Of a stretch of 64,000 nt of DNA, positions 1,700 through 57,318 are shown in pieces. The notes below the pieces were generated by a model. It saw only the letters and a list, made by a program, of their open reading frames with translations. It did no database searches and was not told the origin of the DNA. Numbering within the stretch: position 1 is the stretch's first letter; every line of letters starts with the position of its first letter. This DNA comes from a virus. Both the position numbers and the translations under genes were made by a program. The stretch is from positions 1 to 64,000 of IMG/VR virus record IMGVR_UViG_3300017725_000001. One strand, given 5' to 3'.

Positions 1700-2821
1700 T
1701 TATTTTACAGTGAATTGTTCGTAAGTTCTGTTGATGACATTATGCGTTCTTACAAATGTTGCACATTTTGGCATATCTTTTAAACGCCTTGCTCCAATGT
1801 AAGTAGCCGCAGATCTAACTCCACCTAGTATGTTTTCTACTGTATCGTTAATAGGTCCTCTATAAGGCATAACAATATGTCTACCTTCATTCCCTCTATA
1901 GCCATCTTTTCGTTTGCCATGTTTCTCTCTAGCACGATCTGAGCTCATACCATAAAACTCAACAAACTGTTGTTCTTCAAAGTGTGGAACATATGTTCCA
2001 TTATCTAGCTTATGAGCTCCACCAGTAGCAGTATGTTTAGTAATAATATTACCACCACCTTCTTTATGACCAGCTAACATTCCACCAATCATTACCATAT
2101 GAGCTCCACCGCCAAGTGCTTTAGCAATATCTCCTGGATGTACACAACCACCATCTGCCATAATATGTCCATCAACGCCATTTGCCGCATCTGCACATTC
2201 TAATATAGCTGAAAACTGTGGTACTCCAATACCTGTCATTGTTCTTGTAGTACATACTGATCCAGGCCCAATACCAATTTTAACTACGTCAGCACCATTT
2301 ATAATTAGTTCTTCTACCATTTCTGGAGTTACTACGTTGCCTGCTACAATAACTTTATCTGGATATTCTTCTCTTACCATTTTAATAAAGTCTACAAAAT
2401 TCTCGTGATAAGCATTGGCAACATCAACAGTAATCATTTTTACATCAGGAAATGATTTTAATACTGCCTGCATATTGGAATAATCTTCTGCGTCTGGATC
2501 GTACATACGATTTGTTCCTGTACATACACTTACACTCTGTAAACGTAAACCTGTACCTGCGGCCGCTTTCCATTCATCTAGTGTTGTACTTTTTGTAATT
2601 ACAGTCATCATTTTGTGTTCTTGTAATACTTTAGCAACTTCAAACGTACCTACACCATCCATATTACTAGCAAATATAGGGCAGAAGTCAATCACTTTAC
2701 CAGAGTTTCGGAATGTAAACTTTCTAGTCATTTGTACATCACGTCTACTTGATAGTGTAGAACGTTTTGGTTCCATTAATACATCTTCAAAATTTAGTTT
2801 AACTTCTTCACGCACTCTCAT
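1700..2821 (-). CDS. guaC: GMP reductase
   Basis: 373 residues, close to the usual length for GuaC. It converts GMP to IMP with NADPH, feeding purine salvage from degraded host nucleotides. Seen: the (beta/alpha)8 loop GIGPGSVCTTR with the catalytic Cys near residue 190, and the phosphate-binding IMADGGCVHPGDIAKALGGG and VMIGGMLAGHKE segments. The TTR after the Cys and the ECADAA motif favour GMP reductase over IMP dehydrogenase, and there is no CBS domain. AAGGA lies before the ATG, which overlaps the end of the upstream cytidylyltransferase by 14 bases. It fits with the phage NrdAB genes as nucleotide supply. Confidence 0.88.
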   Translation of the reverse strand: MRVREEVKLNFEDVLMEPKRSTLSSRRDVQMTRKFTFRNSGKVIDFCPIFASNMDGVGTFEVAKVLQEHKMMTVITKSTTLDEWKAAAGTGLRLQSVSVCTGTNRMYDPDAEDYSNMQAVLKSFPDVKMITVDVANAYHENFVDFIKMVREEYPDKVIVAGNVVTPEMVEELIINGADVVKIGIGPGSVCTTRTMTGIGVPQFSAILECADAANGVDGHIMADGGCVHPGDIAKALGGGAHMVMIGGMLAGHKEGGGNIITKHTATGGAHKLDNGTYVPHFEEQQFVEFYGMSSDRAREKHGKRKDGYRGNEGRHIVMPYRGPINDTVENILGGVRSAATYIGARRLKDMPKCATFVRTHNVINRTYEQFTVK

Positions 2822-3523: not shown

Positions 3524-4093
3524 TTATATTCCTAATATTCCGTATGCTTCATATGGTAACCAATGTGTATTCATTCTTTCTGGGTGCCATAATACTGTTA
3601 TAATGTTATCTAACTTCCAACTTTCGCAATTACCATCTTCATCTGTAGCTAAACAAGTGGCACCTGCAGGTATCTTATCTAATACTTCTTCGTGCCTACT
3701 ACAAACTTTAACTTCACTATCATTATAATATACGATATGATCGTGAGTATGTCTACCATTTTCTTTAATACTGCCTCCTAGGCTAGTAGTTAAGAATTGG
3801 CAACCTCTACTTATTCCTAAAATAGGTTTGTTGTACAGTCTTGCTAAATCTAACGTGTGCTTTTCGACTCTTAATCTATTTTCATTGTACTGCCAATTTC
3901 CGGGTATCATGCTATTGCCACCTGTGAACACTATAATATCGCTACTGACTATTAAATCTGTTTGATAATGATCTAAGTGATTTGGAATAGGCCGTAAAGT
4001 ATGTCCATTGAACATATCATAAAATCCGTGATCTATGCTGTCATATGGACCGTTTCGAAAGTCAATCACACGTTGCGTGATTGCTATTTTCAT
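3524..4093 (-). CDS. Class I glutamine amidotransferase-like (peptidase C26-like) protein with Ser at the nucleophile position
   Basis: 189 residues with the GATase1 layout: an oxyanion-type VFTGGNSM, a nucleophile elbow GISRGCQF near residues 93-100, and WHPE near 169-172 giving His170 and Glu172. The family norm is G-x-C-R-G; here position 95 is Ser and the nearest Cys is residue 98. The fold call is good, but activity as a normal amidotransferase is doubtful. It neighbours the cytidylyltransferase gene. In Campylobacter a cytidylyltransferase and a C26-type hydrolase act together to make CDP-amidate; the parallel here is only suggestive. Confidence 0.7.
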   Translation of the reverse strand: MKIAITQRVIDFRNGPYDSIDHGFYDMFNGHTLRPIPNHLDHYQTDLIVSSDIIVFTGGNSMIPGNWQYNENRLRVEKHTLDLARLYNKPILGISRGCQFLTTSLGGSIKENGRHTHDHIVYYNDSEVKVCSRHEEVLDKIPAGATCLATDEDGNCESWKLDNIITVLWHPERMNTHWLPYEAYGILGI

Positions 4094-4104: not shown

Positions 4105-4407
4105 TTACTCTGTTTTTTCTAATGTAACATCTAAAGGAAAACCATTTCTTCTGGCTTCTGTTACAGTTTCTACGCATTTTTGTTCTGCTACTTCGTAGCT
4201 ATAGGTGCCTGCTACACCTTTACCTTTTTTATGTACTTCTAACGTAATAGCTTCTGCTTTTGTTTTTGTTTTATTAAAAATAGTTTGGCATATATTAATA
4301 ACAAATTCCATAGGTGTAGAATCGTCATTGAGTAGTATTACACAATACTTAGGTGGAGATTTTAACTTTGTAATCTCTGCTACATCACTTGTCTGAGTTC
4401 TTGTCAT
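4105..4407 (-). CDS. clpS: ClpS adaptor protein
   Basis: 100 residues. The core PPKYCVILLNDDSTPMEFV and the HKKGKGVAGTYSYEVAE segment are the ClpS fold, including the NDD region that binds N-degron substrates. ClpS delivers N-end-rule substrates to ClpAP in bacteria. The phage also encodes ClpX and ClpP, so this could redirect host degradation. AGGAAGG precedes the ATG and a late promoter box lies at 4427-4436. Confidence 0.9.
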   Translation of the reverse strand: MTRTQTSDVAEITKLKSPPKYCVILLNDDSTPMEFVINICQTIFNKTKTKAEAITLEVHKKGKGVAGTYSYEVAEQKCVETVTEARRNGFPLDVTLEKTE

Positions 4408-4426
4408 AATTATGCCTTCCTATAAA

Positions 4427-4436
4427 GATATTTATA
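4427..4436 (-). promoter_or_regulatory. Late-type promoter TATAAATATC
   Basis: A consensus TATAAATA box in the gap between rpsU and clpS, about 20 bases before the clpS ATG. It gives clpS and the genes to its left a late start separate from the clpX-infC-rpsU transcript. Confidence 0.6.
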
Positions 4437-4439
4437 GAT

Positions 4440-4721
4440 CTATTTTGGTTTGTCCATAGCAATTCGTCTACGATGTCTAGCTTTACCAGCCGCTTCTGCT
4501 TTGATTCTTTTTTCCGTGTTACTTACAAAGTGTCTACGGTCACGAACTTCTTGCATTATACCTTCTTTTGCTATCATCTTTTTAAGTCTTCTCATAGCTT
4601 GTTCAAGGTTTCCGTTTCTAACTTCAACAGTTAAACCTTTTACTTTGGGTTGATCGTCACGTCTAGTAGGCCGTCTATCATTTGACTGCCAATTTTTTGT
4701 ATAGTTTTTATTATATGCCAT
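4440..4721 (-). CDS. rpsU: Ribosomal protein bS21
   Basis: 93 residues. The segment VEVRNGNLEQAMRRLKKM followed by EVRDRRHFVSN and a basic tail is unmistakably bS21. bS21 sits on the 30S platform next to the anti-Shine-Dalgarno end of 16S rRNA and affects mRNA selection. Phage bS21 has been reported from pelagiphage HTVC008M. Here it lies seven bases downstream of the phage IF-3 gene, so both would be made from one message. The first 25 residues are an extra polar extension relative to short bacterial S21. Confidence 0.93.
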   Translation of the reverse strand: MAYNKNYTKNWQSNDRRPTRRDDQPKVKGLTVEVRNGNLEQAMRRLKKMIAKEGIMQEVRDRRHFVSNTEKRIKAEAAGKARHRRRIAMDKPK

Positions 4722-4728
4722 ATGTTTT

Positions 4729-5250
4729 CTATGTTTTTCCAGTTACTCTGTGACTTTGAACACTAATATGTTCAAATTTGATATTAAGTTTTTCTGCAAA
4801 CTTATTTAGCACTTCTTTAGCGGACTCAGGTCTGCCACGTTCTCTGCCTTTCATTGTCACCATAACTGTTAGTTTGTTATTTTTATCTAAGAATTTACGA
4901 GCCATATTAGCTTTTGTTTCCAAATCATGGATATCAATGTTTACACCCATTCGTATTTCCTTAATTTCTACAATGCTTTCGCGTTGTTTCTTTTTAGCCA
5001 GCTTTTGTTTTTGCTTTAGCTCATACAAATGTTTATTGAGTGCGATAATTCTGCATACTGGTGGCTGAGCTTTTTCAGCTATTAGTACTAAATCTAACTC
5101 CATTTCTTTTGCTTTTGCTAAGGCTTCCTTTGTAGACATGACCTGACTATCGCCATCTGGAAAGGAAACTCGTATTTCTGCAAATTTAATACGTTCATTT
5201 GCAGTATACAAAGGTTTTGTATCTCTTCTTCTAAAATTCCTATTTTGCAT
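4729..5250 (-). CDS. infC: Translation initiation factor IF-3
   Basis: 173 residues from the ATG at 5250, which has AAGAG before it and overlaps the clpX end by 11 bases; a longer start at 5295 lacks these signs. The N-domain (YTANERIKFAEIRVSFPDG...PPVCRI), a Lys-rich linker (KQKQKLAKKKQRES) and the C-domain (EIKEIRMGVNIDIHDLETK, GRERGRPESAKEVL) are in normal order, so the protein looks full-length. IF-3 prevents 50S joining and proofreads the start codon and initiator tRNA on 30S. A phage copy beside bS21 suggests control of initiation. Confidence 0.92.
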   Translation of the reverse strand: MQNRNFRRRDTKPLYTANERIKFAEIRVSFPDGDSQVMSTKEALAKAKEMELDLVLIAEKAQPPVCRIIALNKHLYELKQKQKLAKKKQRESIVEIKEIRMGVNIDIHDLETKANMARKFLDKNNKLTVMVTMKGRERGRPESAKEVLNKFAEKLNIKFEHISVQSHRVTGKT

Positions 5251-6454
5251 TGGTGCTCTTAATGTAATGGGGTTCTGCGTTTTTAGAAATAACATCTTTT
5301 GTAATAATAATTTTGTTTATACCTTCACTGGACATTTCTGGTAACCTATATTGTAATTCAAGTAATGCACCATCAAGTATCTTACGCAACCCTCTGGCCC
5401 CTATTTCTTCTTTTATTGCTATGTCTGCTACCTCTTCCAATGCTTCCATTTTAAACTCTATTTGTATTTTGTCAAGTAAAAATAATTCTTTAATTTGCTC
5501 TACAATAGCATCTTTTGGTTCTGTTAATATCTTTACCAAGTCTTCTTTGCTTAGATGGGATAATACGTTGGTACTTGCAAACCTACCAATAAATTCTGGT
5601 ATTAATCCATACTTTACCAAGTCTTTGGTTTGTAAGTACTCTGTCCAATTTTCTATCTTATGACCTTCTTCACCATTAAAGCCTATTTTTGATTTACCAA
5701 GTCTATTAGCAACTACTTCTTCTAAACCAACAAATGCACCACCAACAATAAACAATATATTGGTTGTATCAACAATTACTTTTTCTGGATTACTTTGAGG
5801 CTTATTAGGTACTGTTACTTTACTACCTTCTATTAGCTTTAATAAACTTTGCTGAACTCCTTCACCACTTACATCTCTACTTAAACTTACAAAGTCATTA
5901 CGTTTTGCTTTTTTATCTATTTCGTCAACATAAATTATACCACGTTCTGCTCTTTCTACGTTGTAATCTGCCGCTTGAAATAATTTATGTATTAATACTT
6001 CTGCATCTTCTCCTGCATAACCGCTTTCGGTAATAACTGTAGCATCTGTTACAACAAATGGAACATCTAAATGATTGGCTAGTGTTTGTGCCATTAATGT
6101 TTTACCAGTTCCTGTAGGACCTGCAATAAACACATTTCCTTTTTGTAATTTTGTTTTTGTATCTGATGTAATTCTTCTATAATGATTATAAACTGCTACA
6201 CTTAAAGTTTTCTTTGCTTTATCTTGACTTATAACATAATCATCTAAATGCTTGTGTATTTCTCTAGGTGTAGGAAGATTAAATTTCTTTTCTATTGTAT
6301 TTTCTATTTTAATTTCATTGTTCTGTAATATGCCGTGACATAACTCTACACAATCAGAACAAATGTGCATAGCATTTTCACCTGCTAATAATTTTTTTAC
6401 TTGGTTTCTACCTTTTCCGCAAAAATTGCAGATTATATCATTTGGTCTCATCAA
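5240..6454 (-). CDS. clpX: ClpX unfoldase
   Basis: 404 residues. N-terminal zinc-binding domain with Cys9, Cys12, Cys32 and Cys35; Walker A GPTGTGKT at about 112-119; Walker B IIYVDEIDKK; and the sensor/C-terminal GARGLRKI segment. ClpX unfolds tagged proteins and feeds them to ClpP, which the phage also encodes at 9118. An N-terminal domain this complete suggests adaptor recognition is kept. Its start overlaps the upstream gene by 17 bases and its end overlaps infC. Confidence 0.95.
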   Translation of the reverse strand: MMRPNDIICNFCGKGRNQVKKLLAGENAMHICSDCVELCHGILQNNEIKIENTIEKKFNLPTPREIHKHLDDYVISQDKAKKTLSVAVYNHYRRITSDTKTKLQKGNVFIAGPTGTGKTLMAQTLANHLDVPFVVTDATVITESGYAGEDAEVLIHKLFQAADYNVERAERGIIYVDEIDKKAKRNDFVSLSRDVSGEGVQQSLLKLIEGSKVTVPNKPQSNPEKVIVDTTNILFIVGGAFVGLEEVVANRLGKSKIGFNGEEGHKIENWTEYLQTKDLVKYGLIPEFIGRFASTNVLSHLSKEDLVKILTEPKDAIVEQIKELFLLDKIQIEFKMEALEEVADIAIKEEIGARGLRKILDGALLELQYRLPEMSSEGINKIIITKDVISKNAEPHYIKSTNAK

Positions 6455-6890
6455 AATACTCTGGGTTCATTTGTAACCTTATATAGTTATGTACATCTTC
6501 CATCTTAGTGACTACTAAATTTTCGCCTGTTGCGTTTATTAGTTTTATCGTATCTCTTCTAGTGTACTTATCACTGTAAAACAGTACAACTTTTTCATCG
6601 TCTCTTGGTTTCATTAATCCTGCAATTATATCTGCTTCTGCACAGGTATCAAGATCAATAATCATAAATTCACAAGTTTTTGATACGTTCCATAGCCATG
6701 GTAGGGTATTTGAGTTAGTTAGTTTATTTTGTATATAGAATACAATGCTTGTTGCAATATATTTTTCAAATATATCTTTTACTTTTGTTATTAACTTTTG
6801 ATTGGTACTGGTTATTAGTACACTTACACCGTGTTCAGTCAACATTAAATCAGGAGGTGTGACTGTGTAAGAACTATTGTCTAATTTCAT
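6438..6890 (-). CDS. Hypothetical protein upstream of clpX
   Basis: 150 residues, alpha/beta in appearance (VSVLITSTNQKLITKVKDIF, CEFMIIDLDTC, EKVVLFYSDK), which suggests a Rossmann-like or receiver-like fold. The ATG overlaps the upstream stop as ATGA and its end overlaps clpX. I do not recognise the family; the coupling suggests a function with ClpX or the membrane protein upstream. Confidence 0.6.
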   Translation of the reverse strand: MKLDNSSYTVTPPDLMLTEHGVSVLITSTNQKLITKVKDIFEKYIATSIVFYIQNKLTNSNTLPWLWNVSKTCEFMIIDLDTCAEADIIAGLMKPRDDEKVVLFYSDKYTRRDTIKLINATGENLVVTKMEDVHNYIRLQMNPEYFDETK

Positions 6891-8677
6891 TTCTTAATAT
6901 CTTTTAATATTGTGTTATACACTTCTTGTAATACTTTTTCATCTGCTCTTGATATAAGTTCTTTTAGTTCTAAAGATGCATCATCAGCAAATATTTGTTC
7001 AATTTTCTTTTTAACAACACCTTCGCCTTCCATATAACTTGTACCTGGCCAACTTCCGGTGCTTTTCATTTCAGCAACAATTTTATTTACTAATTCTTTT
7101 TTTTCTTTCTTTGCCGCTGATCTCTCTTTACTATTTAGTTCCCATTGAACCTTGTTGACTACATACTTACGTTCGCCGGTTTTAATGTCTACTGTATATT
7201 CTTCACCCTTCTCGTCTTTAAAAATTTCTGGTGGAGTATCTTTAGATTCAAGATATCCTTCTGATTCAGTATCTTTAGCAAGTGCCTCAAGAATTTCTTT
7301 ATCTTCTTCTTGAATTTTTTCTGCTATTTCGAGTGTTTGTTCCAAAACTTTATCTTGTACATCAGACTCTTTGGTAGTCTCTGGCTCGATCTCAATATCT
7401 GTATCATCTTCTCTGATGTTGCTGTCTTCGCTAGATTCAGTTTGTTCTTCTTGTACTGTTTTTTCATTTAAGATTTTTGTTTTCTTGCCCGGCCTGGGAT
7501 ACCTTTCTACCAATATAATACCTGAGATAACAAGTACAATGGCCAACGGATCGAAAACACAAACAAGAATTAACATAACAAATCTAACGGCATCTTCTAA
7601 CATATTTCTTGTTGCTTCGTCACCGTAAATTAATTCTGCAATGTATTTAACCGGGCCAACTTCTGCTTCTAATTGTCTGCTTTCGCCTTCTAACGCAATT
7701 TTCTTGCTATATAGATCGCCAAGCTCTACATTAGATGCTTTGATATTATCTCTTAATGCAATTATTTCTTCTGTACTATCTTCAACCTGTCCCTGGCCTA
7801 ATTGTGCTCTGAGTCTAGTAATTAACTCATTTGAGTCAGCAATTTGTTGTTCAGCTAGTGCTCTTAGTCTCTTGATCTCATTTCTAGCATCAACAATTAC
7901 TGGATCTTCTTGTGTTTTTATGTTGTTTATAATTTTTAAAATTTCGTCTTTACGTTCATCTTTAGCTTGTCTAAACTCTTTAACTGCTTTAGCAGTTCTA
8001 CTACCATATCTACCATCTTGTCTAGCACCAATCATGCCTTGTAGCTTCTTAATATTTTCTGTTGCTACATACATATCTATTAGTTCTAAGTCTTTTTGAA
8101 TTTTATCTAATTCACGAGTGTATGGCTCTATAGTTTTTTCTCTATCAGCTAATTGCTTTTCTATACGTTCATTTAATTCTTCAATAGAAGGATTAACACC
8201 ATCATATGCAGTATTAATTCTTTCTTGCTCTTGATTAATTTTATCTTGTATTGTAGTATCAATTTTATCATCTTTATTTTCAAAGTTTGAAATCTTTGTC
8301 TCAAATCTAACTACATCTTGTTTAATTCTAACAATACTGTCTTCTATAATCTCTATTTGAGCTACGTTCTCTGTGGCTAGACTTGTTTGCTGGATATGAG
8401 CTTTACTTAAAAAGCCAAATATACCCATACTCGTGATAAACATGAGCAACAGTACTGCCACGGAGAGATACGTTCTAATAAGAATGGGTGCCTGTCGCCA
8501 ATGTAAATGTAACCATACTGCCGACGTTAGTTTACCAATTTCTAGTACGGAACCCATGATAATAATAGGTATCATAGCCGCGGAGAATATAGCAACCAAG
8601 CCAACGATACTGTAGTAGGCCGCTACTGCACTAATTGCCAGAGCCACTAATATTGTCCAATAACCAAAATACCTCAT
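6887..8677 (-). CDS. Large coiled-coil membrane protein with a peptidoglycan-binding-like motif (DUF4407-like architecture)
   Basis: 596 residues. Three hydrophobic segments lie at about 7-30, 32-50 and 68-90. A long charged coiled coil covers roughly 105-350 and contains LQGMIGARQDGRYGSRTAK (about 212-230), which resembles the DG.YG..T.KAV.EF core of peptidoglycan-binding-1 domains. A further membrane segment at about 363-390 leads to an acidic cytoplasmic tail. This layout resembles DUF4407 proteins. It could span the envelope and influence lysis or superinfection; that role is inference. ATGA coupling joins it to the next gene. Confidence 0.6.
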   Translation of the reverse strand: MRYFGYWTILVALAISAVAAYYSIVGLVAIFSAAMIPIIIMGSVLEIGKLTSAVWLHLHWRQAPILIRTYLSVAVLLLMFITSMGIFGFLSKAHIQQTSLATENVAQIEIIEDSIVRIKQDVVRFETKISNFENKDDKIDTTIQDKINQEQERINTAYDGVNPSIEELNERIEKQLADREKTIEPYTRELDKIQKDLELIDMYVATENIKKLQGMIGARQDGRYGSRTAKAVKEFRQAKDERKDEILKIINNIKTQEDPVIVDARNEIKRLRALAEQQIADSNELITRLRAQLGQGQVEDSTEEIIALRDNIKASNVELGDLYSKKIALEGESRQLEAEVGPVKYIAELIYGDEATRNMLEDAVRFVMLILVCVFDPLAIVLVISGIILVERYPRPGKKTKILNEKTVQEEQTESSEDSNIREDDTDIEIEPETTKESDVQDKVLEQTLEIAEKIQEEDKEILEALAKDTESEGYLESKDTPPEIFKDEKGEEYTVDIKTGERKYVVNKVQWELNSKERSAAKKEKKELVNKIVAEMKSTGSWPGTSYMEGEGVVKKKIEQIFADDASLELKELISRADEKVLQEVYNTILKDIKK

Positions 8678-9117: not shown

Positions 9118-9705
9118 CTATGTTTTGCGAGAAACTACTTTATCTGCTAAACCAAAGGCAACTGCCTCGTCTGCACTTAGATAATTGTCTCTCTCCATAG
9201 CTTTTGATAGTTCATCATACGACTTATTAGCAGTATTATGCTTTTCATAGATTTTTGTTAAATTTTCTTTTATTTTAATAATCTCTTTTACTTGTATTTC
9301 CATGTCAGTAGCCTGCCCACCTGCACCACCACTTGGTTGGTGTATCATAGTTCTAGCATTAGGTAATATATTACGTTTACCTGGCTCACCTGCCATTGCA
9401 AGGAAACTACCCATACTACAAGCCTGCCCTATTACGATTGTACTTACTGGAGATTTAATAAATTGCATCGTATCATAAATTGCAAGACCTGATGTTACTG
9501 CACCTCCAGGACTATTGATATAAAAATTAATATCTTCTGCGTTGTTTTGTGACTCACAAAATAGCATTTGTGCTACTACTAATTGAGCTGAATGATCGTT
9601 AACTTCGCCATTAAGCATTACAATTCGATCTTTAAGCAAACGACTGTAAATGTCGTATGCACGTTCACCGCGACCTGTTGTTTCTATTACTGTTGGTATA
9701 AGCAT
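9118..9705 (-). CDS. clpP: ClpP protease subunit
   Basis: 195 residues, normal for ClpP. The catalytic triad is visible: Ser97 in [14 protein letters not shown], His122 in [12 protein letters not shown], and Asp173 in [23 protein letters not shown] gives the oxyanion and dimer region. ClpP forms the proteolytic barrel that ClpX or ClpA feeds. TAGGAG lies 6 bases before the ATG. The phage set ClpX, ClpP and ClpS is split across 4.1-9.7 kb. Confidence 0.95.
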
Positions 9706-20500: not shown

Positions 20501-20576
20501 TGGTAGTCCGTAGGGGAATCGAACCCCTCTTTTCGCCGTGAAAGGGCGATGTCCTAAACCGATAGACGAACGGACC
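20501..20576 (-). tRNA. tRNA-Glu (UUC)
   Basis: Full cloverleaf on the minus strand, with anticodon loop CTTTCAC on a GGCGA/TCGCC-type stem, T-arm GGGGTTCGATTCCCC and an encoded CCA end. Read by eye; all four arms pair. Confidence 0.93.
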
Positions 20577-20581
20577 TTATA

Positions 20582-21097
20582 TTACTCGTGTTCACCTCCA
20601 GGATCATTTGGATCCAATGGAACTTTTTGTGCATTACCATGTTTATCTCTATAGATAGTATATGTTCTGCCTCGACCATATGAAGTATATCCACTAGCAA
20701 AATTTATTAATTTTGTAGGATTACGTTTTGCAGTTTCAAATGTTGCTACTGTAACTGCAATAGCACCTAACAATAGTGTATGTAATACCATGCTGAACAC
20801 ACCCATATACATACTACCTACAATAATGCCAAATACTGTACACCACATCCATGCCAATACTTGCATAATCATATGTCGTGTACTAAAATCTGGAATATTA
20901 CTTAATGGATTTCTCTTATCATCCATTACACTATTCCAACAATCATAAACCCATTCTCTCATATCTTTCACCTTTTCAAATTTTACTTTTTTAGGATAGT
21001 TAGCATCTGCACTATCTCTAAAATCTATTGCATCATACAGATCGTGAAACTTTTCAACAACCTTGTGATCTCTAAAGTATGCTGATACTTTATACAT
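20582..21097 (-). CDS. Membrane protein between tRNA genes
   Basis: 171 residues. A soluble N-terminal part with FRDHKVVEKFHDLYDAIDF, then hydrophobic helices at about 77-118 (MQVLAWMWCTVFGIIVG, HTLLLGAIAVTVATF), then a Gly/Tyr-rich tail (GYTSYGRGRTYTIYRD). It lies between tRNA-Glu and tRNA-Asp, probably in the same transcript. No family recognised. Confidence 0.6.
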   Translation of the reverse strand: MYKVSAYFRDHKVVEKFHDLYDAIDFRDSADANYPKKVKFEKVKDMREWVYDCWNSVMDDKRNPLSNIPDFSTRHMIMQVLAWMWCTVFGIIVGSMYMGVFSMVLHTLLLGAIAVTVATFETAKRNPTKLINFASGYTSYGRGRTYTIYRDKHGNAQKVPLDPNDPGGEHE

Positions 21098-21115
21098 TAC
21101 TTCTCCAATTCTTAA

Positions 21116-21192
21116 TGGCGAGAGTGAAGGGACTCGAACCCTCGGCCTTCTGCGTGACAGGCAGACGCTCTAACCAACTGAGCTACACCCCC
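21116..21192 (-). tRNA. tRNA-Asp (GUC)
   Basis: Cloverleaf with acceptor GGGGGTG and two G-U pairs, anticodon stem-loop TCTGC-CTGTCAC-GCAGA, T-arm GAGGGTTCGAGTCCC-type and encoded CCA. It starts about seven bases after the predicted +1 of a consensus promoter. Confidence 0.93.
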
Positions 21193-21205
21193 AATTTAAG
21201 TTTTA

Positions 21206-21234
21206 ATTATACTACTGTTTTACTGAAATGTCAA
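21206..21234 (-). promoter_or_regulatory. Early (sigma70 consensus) promoter for tRNAs
   Basis: TTGACA 21229-21234, 17 bp, TATAAT 21206-21211: a perfect consensus. It drives tRNA-Asp, the membrane protein gene and tRNA-Glu. Confidence 0.85.
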
Positions 21235-21241
21235 GACTAGA

Positions 21242-21712
21242 TTATTTTCGTTTTGGTTTGCACCAAGTCTCTTTTTTGTCGCCATAATATTCTCTGGCAA
21301 AGCCGTTTTCAATAAGCATATGTCTAAGACTTTTACCATCAATAATAATGTCGCCTAACACTCTGCCACCAAATTTATCCCATTTAGCAATCGCTACTTG
21401 TAATTTTTTAGCATTGTTTAATTGATCTTTGGTAAACTGTGATGCTTCTTCACCCCACTTGGCTTCTGATTCGCATTCAGCTCTCCAACCTTTTTCTGGC
21501 GTGTCAACTCCATATACTCTTATACTTAATTCTTGTTTGAGTGGTGCCGGAAGAAATGGCGCCGCAAATGCTACTGTATCTCCATCAATCACTCTAGTAA
21601 TTTCGTAATTGTATACTTTCATTTCAACTTCTTTTGCTACTGCTGGCCCAAATAATAATTGAGCTATTGTAAGTATTGTTGCCAATCCTAGTATAATATA
21701 TACGTTTCTCAT
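21242..21712 (-). CDS. Exported staphylococcal nuclease-like protein
   Basis: 156 residues. An N-terminal signal-like helix (VYIILGLATILTIAQLLFG then PAVAKE) implies export or membrane anchoring. The SNase core is intact: ITRVIDGDTV, RVYGVDTPEKG with Asp and Glu, and DKFGGRVLGDIIIDG with Arg. Two cysteines flank the end and may form a disulfide. It could degrade DNA in the periplasm. Compare the leaderless, altered copy at 8681-9040. Confidence 0.85.
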   Translation of the reverse strand: MRNVYIILGLATILTIAQLLFGPAVAKEVEMKVYNYEITRVIDGDTVAFAAPFLPAPLKQELSIRVYGVDTPEKGWRAECESEAKWGEEASQFTKDQLNNAKKLQVAIAKWDKFGGRVLGDIIIDGKSLRHMLIENGFAREYYGDKKETWCKPKRK

Positions 21713-21735
21713 TTTAATGTTTTCCTATTCTATTA

Positions 21736-21744
21736 GTATTTATA
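21736..21744 (-). promoter_or_regulatory. Late-type promoter TATAAATAC
   Basis: Consensus box at the end of the gene at 21740-22684 and about 24 bases before the exported nuclease ATG. Confidence 0.55.
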
Positions 21745-22684
21745 GATATTGTGAAAATGTTTCTGTATATAACTGTTTTTTCTGTTTATATACTTTAATA
21801 TAATCAATTAAATATTTTTTTAGTCTAAAAGAATTAACTATTCCCAAATATGCCATAATGTCTTCTGTTTTAGTAAACCAGTCATCTCCAACAACAATAT
21901 GATCTATTTCTTTATTTGTATATGAGAAAAGTGTTTCTGTAAAATCTGCTTCTTGGCTTTTTACTTCAAATAGTCTTTTATGATCTTCTGCATCAATAAA
22001 ATCAATATCATCTTTACCATTTTCTAATGCAGTTCTTAAATCGTTATGAGCAAAATTTAATTGCCACATATATTTTAAATCTCCATCTTTCCATCTACGT
22101 AACATAGCATCATGATATTTTTTATACCAAACTTCTTTCCAATTTTCAACACTGGTATGTTCTTGTATCCATGATTCAGTTTGTTCAATAATATCATCTG
22201 GAGTTTCAATCCAAGCGAATGCATACTGGCTTATATAAAAAAACATCTGTTCTTCAACACTATTATCAACTAATAAAGTTTTGTCTGCTTTGATTATAGT
22301 TTCTGGATTAACTAAATTGCCGCCATAGTTACTCCAAACAAAATAATCAAATTTACTTTTATCTTTAATAAAAGGTTTTGTTACATCAATAGTTCCTTCA
22401 TGGGCTGGATTGTGCTTAACTAGTTTTCCATTTACTACAACACTCTGCGGTACATTGCTAGGCTGTTGATTTGTTGTTTCTAGTAGTGTTAATGATTTTC
22501 TATGTTTTTCATGATAAGGCGATTGACTATCTTCTATTAATACACCGCCTACGTGATGTCCTCTAGGTCTACAATACCCATCATTAAATGCATATAGTTC
22601 TGGACCTATGTTTAATTCTTGTGATAACCACCAGTTAATTGCTGGTGCTGAACCTGTATTATTTTGGTATATAATTATATCCAT
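21740..22684 (-). CDS. Hypothetical protein between tRNA genes
   Basis: 314 residues from the ATG at 22684. A longer frame runs back through tRNA-Ala and is rejected. The start MDIIIYQNNTGSAPAINWWL has a strand-loop-helix form like the P-loop-like proteins at 18.8-20.2 kb, and the middle is acidic and aromatic. No firm family. It sits directly after tRNA-Ala. Confidence 0.55.
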   Translation of the reverse strand: MDIIIYQNNTGSAPAINWWLSQELNIGPELYAFNDGYCRPRGHHVGGVLIEDSQSPYHEKHRKSLTLLETTNQQPSNVPQSVVVNGKLVKHNPAHEGTIDVTKPFIKDKSKFDYFVWSNYGGNLVNPETIIKADKTLLVDNSVEEQMFFYISQYAFAWIETPDDIIEQTESWIQEHTSVENWKEVWYKKYHDAMLRRWKDGDLKYMWQLNFAHNDLRTALENGKDDIDFIDAEDHKRLFEVKSQEADFTETLFSYTNKEIDHIVVGDDWFTKTEDIMAYLGIVNSFRLKKYLIDYIKVYKQKKQLYTETFSQYL

Positions 22685-22701
22685 ATGAATCTCTTTTTTA
22701 A

Positions 22702-22777
22702 TGGTGGAGGATACAGGAATCGAACCTGCGACCTCCTGAATGCAAATCAGGCGCTCTCCCAACTGAGCTAATCCCCC
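22702..22777 (-). tRNA. tRNA-Ala (UGC)
   Basis: Cloverleaf with acceptor GGGGGAT, anticodon stem-loop CCTGA-TTTGCAT-TCAGG, T-arm GCAGGTTCGATTCCTGT and encoded CCA. Confidence 0.94.
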
Positions 22778-22812
22778 AAAAAAAAGTTAACACACCTAAA
22801 TGTGTTAACTAA
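22778..22812 (-). terminator. Rho-independent terminator
   Basis: Stem AGTTAACACA 22785-22794 with TGTGTTAACT 22801-22810, six-base loop, followed on the minus strand by eight Ts. It ends the gene at 22816-23022 immediately before tRNA-Ala, whose expression must need read-through or another start. Confidence 0.9.
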
Positions 22813-22815
22813 AGT

Positions 22816-23022
22816 TTAGTCTTTGAAATATTTGTTAAGCATTTCAAGTCTGTCATGTGCAGTAGCCATTTTATCTAGCTCTTTTTGGATCGTTTCAACG
22901 ATGTCTGAATGTTCGCCAATACCTACTACTTGCCTCATATAAACCTCAATGTTAGCTTTATGAAGGTCAATTTCTGCTTCTGCGTGTTTCTTTGCCGCCG
23001 CTAAAATTATTTCTTTCAACAT
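22816..23022 (-). CDS. Hypothetical helical protein
   Basis: 68 residues, almost entirely helical and charged (LAAAKKHAEAEIDLHKANIEV, DKMATAHDRLEMLNKY). AGGAA lies before the ATG and a strong terminator follows the stop. Function unknown. Confidence 0.6.
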   Translation of the reverse strand: MLKEIILAAAKKHAEAEIDLHKANIEVYMRQVVGIGEHSDIVETIQKELDKMATAHDRLEMLNKYFKD

Positions 23023-23263
23023 AAATTCCTTTCCTAGCTACACCGTCTATAAACCTACTTGAGTGCTTACTCCAATGTTATTCATTTACTTCTTGTAATT
23101 TTGTACTTCTTTATATTTAGTCTTTGTTTTGTATGTCCTGCGTTGGGCTTTGTTTCAAAAGGGCCCTGTCCTGTAATATCCTTTGTGTGTATTTTATTTT
23201 AGTTATATGTCCTTAACACTTAACCGTGAGTGTTAAACGTGTGTATTACGGCACAACCCGATT
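23023..23263 (-). other. Untranslated region between tRNA-Leu and the next gene
   Basis: About 240 bases without a convincing frame. It contains an 8-bp hairpin, TTAACACT 23213-23220 with AGTGTTAA 23229-23236, and a late-like CTAAATAT at 23113-23120. On the minus strand the short word AGGACA or AGGATA recurs. It may be a trailer for the tRNA transcript plus the leader of the gene at 22816. Confidence 0.4.
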
Positions 23264-23348
23264 TGGTGCCCTCGGAGAGACTCGAACTCTCACGTCTTGC
23301 GACACAGGTTCCTAAGACCTGCGTGTCTACCAATTCCACCACAAGGGC
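23264..23348 (-). tRNA. tRNA-Leu (UAG)
   Basis: Class II tRNA with long variable arm (TGTCGCAAGACG). Acceptor GCCCTTG, anticodon loop CTTAGGA on a CAGGT/ACCTG stem, T-arm GAGAGTTCGAGTCTCTC, encoded CCA. Confidence 0.93.
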
Positions 23349-23358
23349 AAATACTTAA

Positions 23359-23434
23359 TGGTGCCGTTACACGGATTCGAACCGCGGACCTACTGATTAC
23401 AAATCAGTTGCTCTACCAGCTGAGCTATAACGGC
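23359..23434 (-). tRNA. tRNA-Thr (UGU)
   Basis: Cloverleaf with acceptor GCCGTTA, anticodon stem-loop ACTGA-TTTGTAA-TCAGT, T-arm CGCGGTTCGAATCCGTG and encoded CCA. Ten bases separate it from tRNA-Leu. Confidence 0.94.
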
Positions 23435-55761: not shown

Positions 55762-57318
55762 TTATAGTAGGCTAAATGGCATTGGTTCCATACCGTCATC
55801 ATCTTCAAAGTCGTCATTAAGGTATTCAAATGCACTTTCTTCGTATTTTGATACTTCCATACTCATACGTACTATTAATACTAATGACATTACCAAGTCA
55901 TCATTTTCGCCATCTTTAGCTGAATAGCTATTTCCTCTAGCTATAAATGTTTTTAATTCTCTTAATAGAGGCTTACTTGCTACCTCTAACTTATCAGTTT
56001 CAATCCAATGCTTTAGTTTAGCACAAGCTGATATTTTTGATTTATGTGTTGTAGTAAAGCCTCTTCTGTATCTTCTAGCATTTCCATGCTGTCTTGTTTC
56101 AGTTAAAAATGTACCAGGAAAGTTTTCTTCTCCTTGTTCTTCTACTGTAACCAGAGCCGCTTCACCAAGTGTATTATTTTCCATGCTATAATATATTTCA
56201 CAATCGTTATTTGTTTCACTTTCAATGTATTGTGCAATCTCACGTAAAATTTTAATCTGTCCTTGTACAGTAGTTCTATTGTGCATCCACTCTGCCATTT
56301 GTTTCATTCCTGGCATTTGATAAACTTGTATAGCACTATTATCTCCTCCTGTGCCTAAACTTGGATCCAATGCTATCATATAAAGTTTACCTTTTGCTAA
56401 TGGTGCATACCACCTAACTTGACCTGCTGTTGCGTAAGGGTCCCTTGCTTCCATATTTGCAAGTCTAATACTATCAATTAGTGTTTCATCAAATGCAATA
56501 AATTCACATTTATGTTCACGTCTAAATCTTTCTTCGCCAATTTTTCCTAATTCAACTTCAGCCCAATCTTCATCTCTATCTGGGTGAGCTTCCCAAGTTG
56601 CTTGATAATGAGCAAATCCATTTATACCAGTAGCAGTTTCGTTTCCAAATTCATCTTGATTCTTTAATGAGTCTCGCCAAATTTGTGCAAACTGATCGTC
56701 ATCCATGTTTGGTGTACTTGTAATAATACATTTACCACCTGTTGCTAGTGTAGGTGAAAGTGAGGTCCAAAACTCTTTAGCTATGTTTGGTCTAACAAAT
56801 GCAAACTCGTCTAAGTATACTAATGAAATAGATAAACCTCTACCTGTGTTTTCTGTTGTTGACTGTGCAATAATACGACTACCGTTATCAAACTCTAAAC
56901 TACCTTTATTGTAACTTGTTACACCAGCACGTATAAAGTCTGGAAGTGTTTCGTATGCAAATCTAACACGTTGCATAATTTCACTAGCACCTGCATATTT
57001 GTGTGCCGCTACTAAAATTGTTTGATCAGGATTAAACATAGCATACCATAACAGGTAACCTGCCGCACAGGTACTCTTACCCATTTGTCTGGCTAACATA
57101 CTAATACTGTATCTATTTTTATGATATACGTCTACTAGCTCGTCTTGAAAATTATATAGATCAAATTTTAGACGTCCTTGAGTAGGATGTTGAATATAAC
57201 AATGCTCCCTCATAAAATATTTTGGGTCATTGGCACATCTAGCTAACTCAGTAAGTTGAGCTTCTGTATATTTTTCTTTTCTATAAGGGGTTTTGGTTAA
57301 TTTTGTGTCTACTGCCAC
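55762..57318 (-). CDS. Large terminase subunit gp17
   Basis: 518 residues. The ATPase Walker A variant LARQMGKST lies near 75-83, Walker B is SLVYLDEFAFV, coupling TSTPN follows, and the nuclease domain begins at MIALDPSLGTGGDNS with further Asp in GENDDLVMS. It drives and cuts DNA during packaging. A late promoter at 57336-57344 precedes it. Confidence 0.95.
   Translation of the reverse strand: MAVDTKLTKTPYRKEKYTEAQLTELARCANDPKYFMREHCYIQHPTQGRLKFDLYNFQDELVDVYHKNRYSISMLARQMGKSTCAAGYLLWYAMFNPDQTILVAAHKYAGASEIMQRVRFAYETLPDFIRAGVTSYNKGSLEFDNGSRIIAQSTTENTGRGLSISLVYLDEFAFVRPNIAKEFWTSLSPTLATGGKCIITSTPNMDDDQFAQIWRDSLKNQDEFGNETATGINGFAHYQATWEAHPDRDEDWAEVELGKIGEERFRREHKCEFIAFDETLIDSIRLANMEARDPYATAGQVRWYAPLAKGKLYMIALDPSLGTGGDNSAIQVYQMPGMKQMAEWMHNRTTVQGQIKILREIAQYIESETNNDCEIYYSMENNTLGEAALVTVEEQGEENFPGTFLTETRQHGNARRYRRGFTTTHKSKISACAKLKHWIETDKLEVASKPLLRELKTFIARGNSYSAKDGENDDLVMSLVLIVRMSMEVSKYEESAFEYLNDDFEDDDGMEPMPFSLL

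Follow-up and report, generated by a model that had tools for sequence, protein, structure and literature searches.

A conserved clpX-infC-rpsU-clpS array joins translation initiation genes to Clp genes in large T4-like phages

Layout, conservation and transcription of the block

The DNA analyzed here, hereafter the window, corresponds to positions 1 to 64,000 of the IMG/VR virus record IMGVR_UViG_3300017725_000001, which is 124,177 bases long. On its minus strand, four genes follow one another in the order clpX-infC-rpsU-clpS. All four are intact, real genes according to Pfam, PHROGs and NCBIfam, and all pass the gathering cut-offs of Pfam. clpX (5240..6451) encodes a ClpX unfoldase of 403 aa, infC (4729..5250) a two-domain IF-3 of 173 aa, rpsU (4440..4721) a bS21 protein of 93 aa and clpS (4105..4407) a Clp adaptor of 100 aa. 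The tight packing reported in a first-pass annotation of this DNA was borne out by measurement: clpX and infC have 11 bases in common (5240-5250, infC being counted from the Met at 5250) and infC is separated from rpsU by 7 bases (4722-4728). An in-frame ATG is also present upstream of the infC start, at 5295. The same annotation placed the start of clpX at 6454, where an in-frame TTG is indeed found, but the ATG just after it, at 6451, is most likely the start codon.

On the clpP side, the interval between clpP (9118..9705, minus strand; peptidase of 195 aa) and clpX holds a nuclease gene, TM596 and orf150, as judged from family searches and predicted fold. TM596 (6887..8677, minus strand) encodes a 596-aa membrane and coiled-coil protein with no assigned putative function and no PHROG match; it is conserved upstream of clpX or rpsU even in phages lacking IF-3. 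The conserved neighbor orf150 (6438..6890, minus strand; 150 aa) overlaps clpX by 14 bases. It is conserved in the clade, has no family match, and its AlphaFold model (pLDDT 80) weakly resembles response-regulator receivers (best E 1.6e-3, TM ~0.5). One may speculate that it is a ClpX adaptor in the manner of RssB. On the other side of the array lie a class-I glutamine amidotransferase gene (3524..4093, minus strand), also a syntenic neighbor, and, in the same syntenic block, the GMP reductase gene gmpR (1700-2821, minus strand; NCBIfam 447.5 bits, above cut-off); family searches also place a cytidylyltransferase near the block. Five tRNA genes (Glu, Asp, Ala, Leu, Thr) are located at 20501-23434 of the window, on the minus strand. 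Since the nearest cultivated terminases to that of the window (55762-57318) are those of PA5oct (54%), then of Phosso and Atu_ph07 (48-50%), the phage can be described as a large T4-like phage.

The four genes belong to a larger conserved block, clpP ... clpX-infC-rpsU-[hsp20]-clpS ... gmpR, which is kept in related IMG/VR contigs. All 25 IMG/VR relatives retrieved with IF-3 show it in synteny, as far as the contigs extend. Among the 110 loci of a wider set, 60 of them distinct in their profile scores, the complete order clpP-TM596-orf150-clpX-IF3-bS21-hsp20-clpS occurs 19 times, and the same set also holds many versions of the block that are cut by contig ends or miss one gene. In nearly all relatives hsp20 stands between rpsU and clpS; it is absent from this place in the window and in the nearest relative, L003, whose genome encodes Hsp20 elsewhere. 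Gene order is retained where IF-3 is only 30-50% identical, with reading frames overlapping and flanking genes changing. The first-pass annotation had made its proposal depend on conservation of the infC-rpsU pair in close relatives, and the pair is kept both in these and in more distant ones. Comparison of the window with L003 indicates purifying selection, with dN/dS values of 0.18 for IF-3, 0.15 for bS21, 0.10 for ClpX, 0.07 for ClpS and 0.05 for ClpP. The grouping of IF-3, bS21 and Clp genes noticed at first pass is real, conserved, tightly packed and under purifying selection.

A candidate T4-type late promoter matching the consensus, TATAAATA, is found on the minus strand before clpS (4429..4436). 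A late promoter had been announced at this place, and the box is present, but the motif was rejected as a window-wide late promoter, with 8 occurrences on the minus strand against 8.8 expected. In the relatives, which are not independent of one another, the motif immediately precedes 6 of 35 distinct hsp20 genes and 4 of 22 clpP genes, more than the background of about 0.007 per 90 nt would give, and it was found upstream of none of 45 infC and none of 51 rpsU genes. Because of this distribution, a late promoter after rpsU appears plausible, and clpX-infC-rpsU would plausibly form one transcription unit up to rpsU, with a late start after it. In another study, phage bS21 was reported to be transcribed together with genes for late structural proteins (PMC9723584). 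Of the 76 minus-strand genes of the window, 40 have a Shine-Dalgarno-like motif before them, compared with 7% of internal start codons. Such a motif is missing before orf150, clpX, infC and rpsU, too few genes for an interpretation.

Features of the encoded proteins

Both domains of IF-3 are recognized by Pfam (IF3_N, 76.8 bits; IF3_C, 68.6 bits) and the NCBIfam infC equivalog gives 132 bits, above cut-off. These searches, the AlphaFold model and PDB fold matches agree on a complete N domain, linker helix and C domain. The model covers both domains with a mean pLDDT of 84; its low pTM (0.47) would follow from an uncertain positioning of the domains with respect to each other. Its top structural matches are IF-3 structures, among them the 30S-bound 5lmn. 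A truncated IF-3 was considered, Pfam covering 63 of 86 C-domain positions, but was dropped in favor of divergence and a C-terminal tail shorter than that of E. coli IF-3, because the last strand is present in the model at residues 168-172. The description of the factor as full-length and two-domain can thus be retained, with this shorter tail, but its presentation as unusual in this phage type was overstated: many large T4-like phages were already known to have IF-3 (PMC7162821; PMC7824862). In an alignment with E. coli IF-3, uncertain in the tail, residues K110, R133, E134 and Y75 are kept, and R99, R112, R147 and R168 are changed in the clade. R99, R147 and R168 are ribosome contacts in E. 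coli, so that 30S binding of the phage factor could be altered.

In a tree of 81 IF-3 sequences, the window copy lies inside a phage-only clade (support 100/98). Mimasvirus-type IF-3 is placed next to this clade with weaker support (86/95), and the IF-3 of Atu_ph07 and Phosso are placed elsewhere. The highest bacterial identity found is 47%, in a bacterial sample that is biased by the search pattern. Given the phage-only clade and this identity, the gene seems not to have been captured recently from a host represented in that biased sample. A host call from IF-3 was likewise given up, the nearest bacterial copies of this sample (at most 47% identical) being spread over phyla. Finally, a frameshift fusion of IF-3 and bS21 was envisaged, the bS21 frame of the window being open a few codons before its ATG, but was rejected in view of the varying infC-rpsU spacing and frame in relatives such as L004.

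The S21 domain of bS21 scores above cut-offs (Pfam, 51.7 bits; NCBIfam S21p, 52), and alignments reveal an N-terminal extension of about 30 residues, basic and aromatic. Work on another viral bS21, that of a pelagiphage, showed its incorporation into 70S ribosomes in E. coli (PMC6375957); by analogy, ribosome entry of the window's protein is plausible.

ClpX matches the Pfam zinc finger (52.2 bits) and AAA_2 (102.6 bits) families and the NCBIfam ClpX equivalog (502 bits, above cut-off). Comparison with E. coli ClpX shows that the C4 zinc finger, Walker motifs, Arg finger, sensor 2, pore-1 tyrosine and IGF ClpP-docking loop are all present. In the E. coli enzyme, V154, T199, R228 and H230 read the ssrA tag (PMC7652416). 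The window protein has A, S, Q and N at these positions and thus lacks the ssrA-type recognition set; V154A and T199S are uniform across the close clade, and the RKH loop is shorter and changed. Because the degron-reading channel is changed at these positions, the phage ClpX is predicted to prefer substrates that probably differ from those of E. coli ClpX. ClpP (Pfam CLP_protease, 256 bits) keeps the Ser-His-Asp triad positions in an alignment with E. coli ClpP.

ClpS passes the Pfam cut-off (102.6 bits); the NCBIfam ClpS models match at 95.7 bits but below their own cut-offs. Aligned to solved ClpS structures, the protein retains the NDD-TPMEFV motif and the conserved histidine, so that the N-degron pocket motif is kept. 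It is established that this adaptor serves ClpA and not ClpX; its action with ClpA is also mentioned in PMC6102473. A profile search of the window's 124 kb record did not find the ClpA N domain (Clp_N). However, L003 and L004, whose records measure 222 and 184 kb, encode ClpA-like proteins of 752-753 aa, and the genome of L034 (205 kb record) has a Clp_N match within a 755-aa frame. The best NCBIfam match of the relatives' ClpA-like proteins is ClpA, yet below the cut-off of that model. In relatives, such genes are sited elsewhere in the genome (L236:1108-3366, L237:554-2812). Because the larger relatives (184-222 kb) carry ClpA, its absence from the window's record is probably due to incompleteness of the record, and the idea of a ClpS without partner was abandoned. 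Relatives having a ClpA-like protein may possess both ClpAPS and ClpXP.

Possible roles of the module

The identity of the genes, their intact folds and motifs, their conserved order and purifying selection are observations. Ribosome loading, an effect on initiation, timing and a functional link between the two halves of the module are inferred. On balance, it appears somewhat probable that large T4-like phages assembled this block themselves and passed it on vertically, as a module combining 30S-acting initiation parts (IF-3, bS21) with a Clp/Hsp20 proteostasis set belonging to the phage. The two initiation proteins of the phage, of which bS21 is an exchangeable ribosomal protein, would associate with the 30S subunits of the host: bS21 would occupy the platform, close to the anti-Shine-Dalgarno, and IF-3 a position next to the P site. 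The initiation rate or the choice of start sites would then shift to phage messages during heavy virion-protein synthesis. In parallel, ClpX, ClpA and ClpS, with ClpP and Hsp20, would manage protein folding and turnover in the same burst. Such a customization of the ribosome is the likeliest reading and a plausible one, resting on the bS21 experiments of others and on homology. The parts of the module are separable, since the PA5oct cluster lacks IF-3 and Mimasvirus IF-3 has no bS21 beside it, and ancestry rather than joint function may lie behind the conserved order.

This latter view can be carried further. Large T4-like phages may simply gather host-like accessory genes at this place, IF-3, bS21 and Clp each acting alone in an order due to common descent. 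The neighbors are indeed functionally unrelated (GMP reductase, cytidylyltransferase, amidotransferase, nuclease) and the parts are found separately in other phages, but we consider an absence of coupling unlikely, as order and overlapping frames survive the strong divergence of IF-3 while the flanks change. A little less likely again, IF-3 would keep ribosomal subunits from associating and help to recycle them, Clp would turn over incomplete products, and the module would sustain late ribosome supply rather than message choice. Anti-association is a general role of IF-3, the Hsp20 and Clp neighbors suggest protein quality control, and ClpX, ClpP and, in relatives, ClpA make up a full protease set. 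We know, however, of no recycling role of bS21, and the case for a rescue-coupled role is weakened by the ClpX channel, where the residues with which the E. coli enzyme reads the ssrA tag are missing.

Two further proposals give proteolysis a part in the exchange of initiation components. In one, the conserved clpX-infC-rpsU-(hsp20)-clpS array would be a functional takeover unit, IF-3 and bS21 building altered 30S initiation complexes and a Clp with changed channel selectively removing host counterparts or other ribosome-associated factors of the host, and the initiation parts would in this way co-evolve with the specificity of degradation; we regard this as improbable. The other, which follows the first-pass annotation, is that IF-3, bS21 or further factors of the host would be degraded by Clp and replaced by the phage copies. 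The ClpX motor and IGF docking loop are intact, ClpP is the phage's own, the modified degron channel points to other substrates, ClpS retains its N-degron motif and relatives have ClpA. Nevertheless, ClpS serves ClpA and not ClpX, Clp_N is absent from the window's record, nothing points to a substrate, and in PA5oct clpX and clpS stand next to bS21 although IF-3 is missing. Moreover, phage Clp proteins have been suggested to act in virion assembly or in DNA replication (PMC6102473, PMC7824862, PMC11242549). This version is the most improbable of the readings considered here.

Comparison with known phages

Several cultivated phages carry parts of the array. PA5oct (Arenbergviridae, MK797984), whose terminase is the closest, has clpX-rpsU-x-x-hsp20-clpS with a 14-base clpX/rpsU overlap; unlike in the window, infC is missing from the cluster and bS21 has no long N-terminal extension. 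Vibrio phage 2.275.O (MG592671) shares the order infC-rpsU-clpS, but has neither clpX nor hsp20 beside it, a KTSC-domain gene coming next. In the Mimasvirus phages GAP32, CBB and XbC2, infC is followed by clpS in an array devoid of clpX and rpsU. In Agrobacterium phage Atu_ph07 and Sinorhizobium phages Phosso and AP-J-162, clpX immediately precedes infC, as already noted in a Sinorhizobium phage (PMC11242549), whereas rpsU is not adjacent and IF-3 belongs to a different branch of the tree; Atu_ph07 has ClpS and ClpA elsewhere in its genome (PMC6102473). Because cultivated phages keep such ordered subsets, an old phage-assembled cluster with lineage-specific partial losses would best explain the block.

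In the accessible text of a study of huge phages, translation genes comprise IF1, IF3, S1, S4, S21 and L7/L12 (Al-Shayeb et al., 2020, PMC7162821). As in the window, IF-3 and bS21 are carried and the N-terminal extension of bS21 is basic and aromatic, but in that text the genes are reported separately and the clpX-infC-rpsU-clpS array is not described. Among 900 bS21-encoding phages, genes for Hsp20 (127) and for Clp proteases (50 and 47) were often found within ten genes of bS21 (Chen et al., 2022, PMC9723584). The presence of Hsp20 and Clp genes near bS21 is common to these phages and the window; there, however, bS21 lies among virion genes, hosts are Bacteroidetes and IF-3 goes unmentioned in the main text. 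The searchable literature, which covered few subscription papers, yielded no description of the combined array. Its newness is limited to arrangement and breadth, the parts (IF-3, bS21, and Clp/Hsp20 near bS21) being already known from phages. Phage IF-3 and bS21 have so far been listed as separate curiosities, and the conserved array joins both to a Clp set. Together with its subsets, it shows where 30S customization and the part played by proteolysis could be tested in phages that can be grown, namely Vibrio phage 2.275.O, with infC-rpsU-clpS, and PA5oct, with clpX-rpsU-hsp20-clpS.
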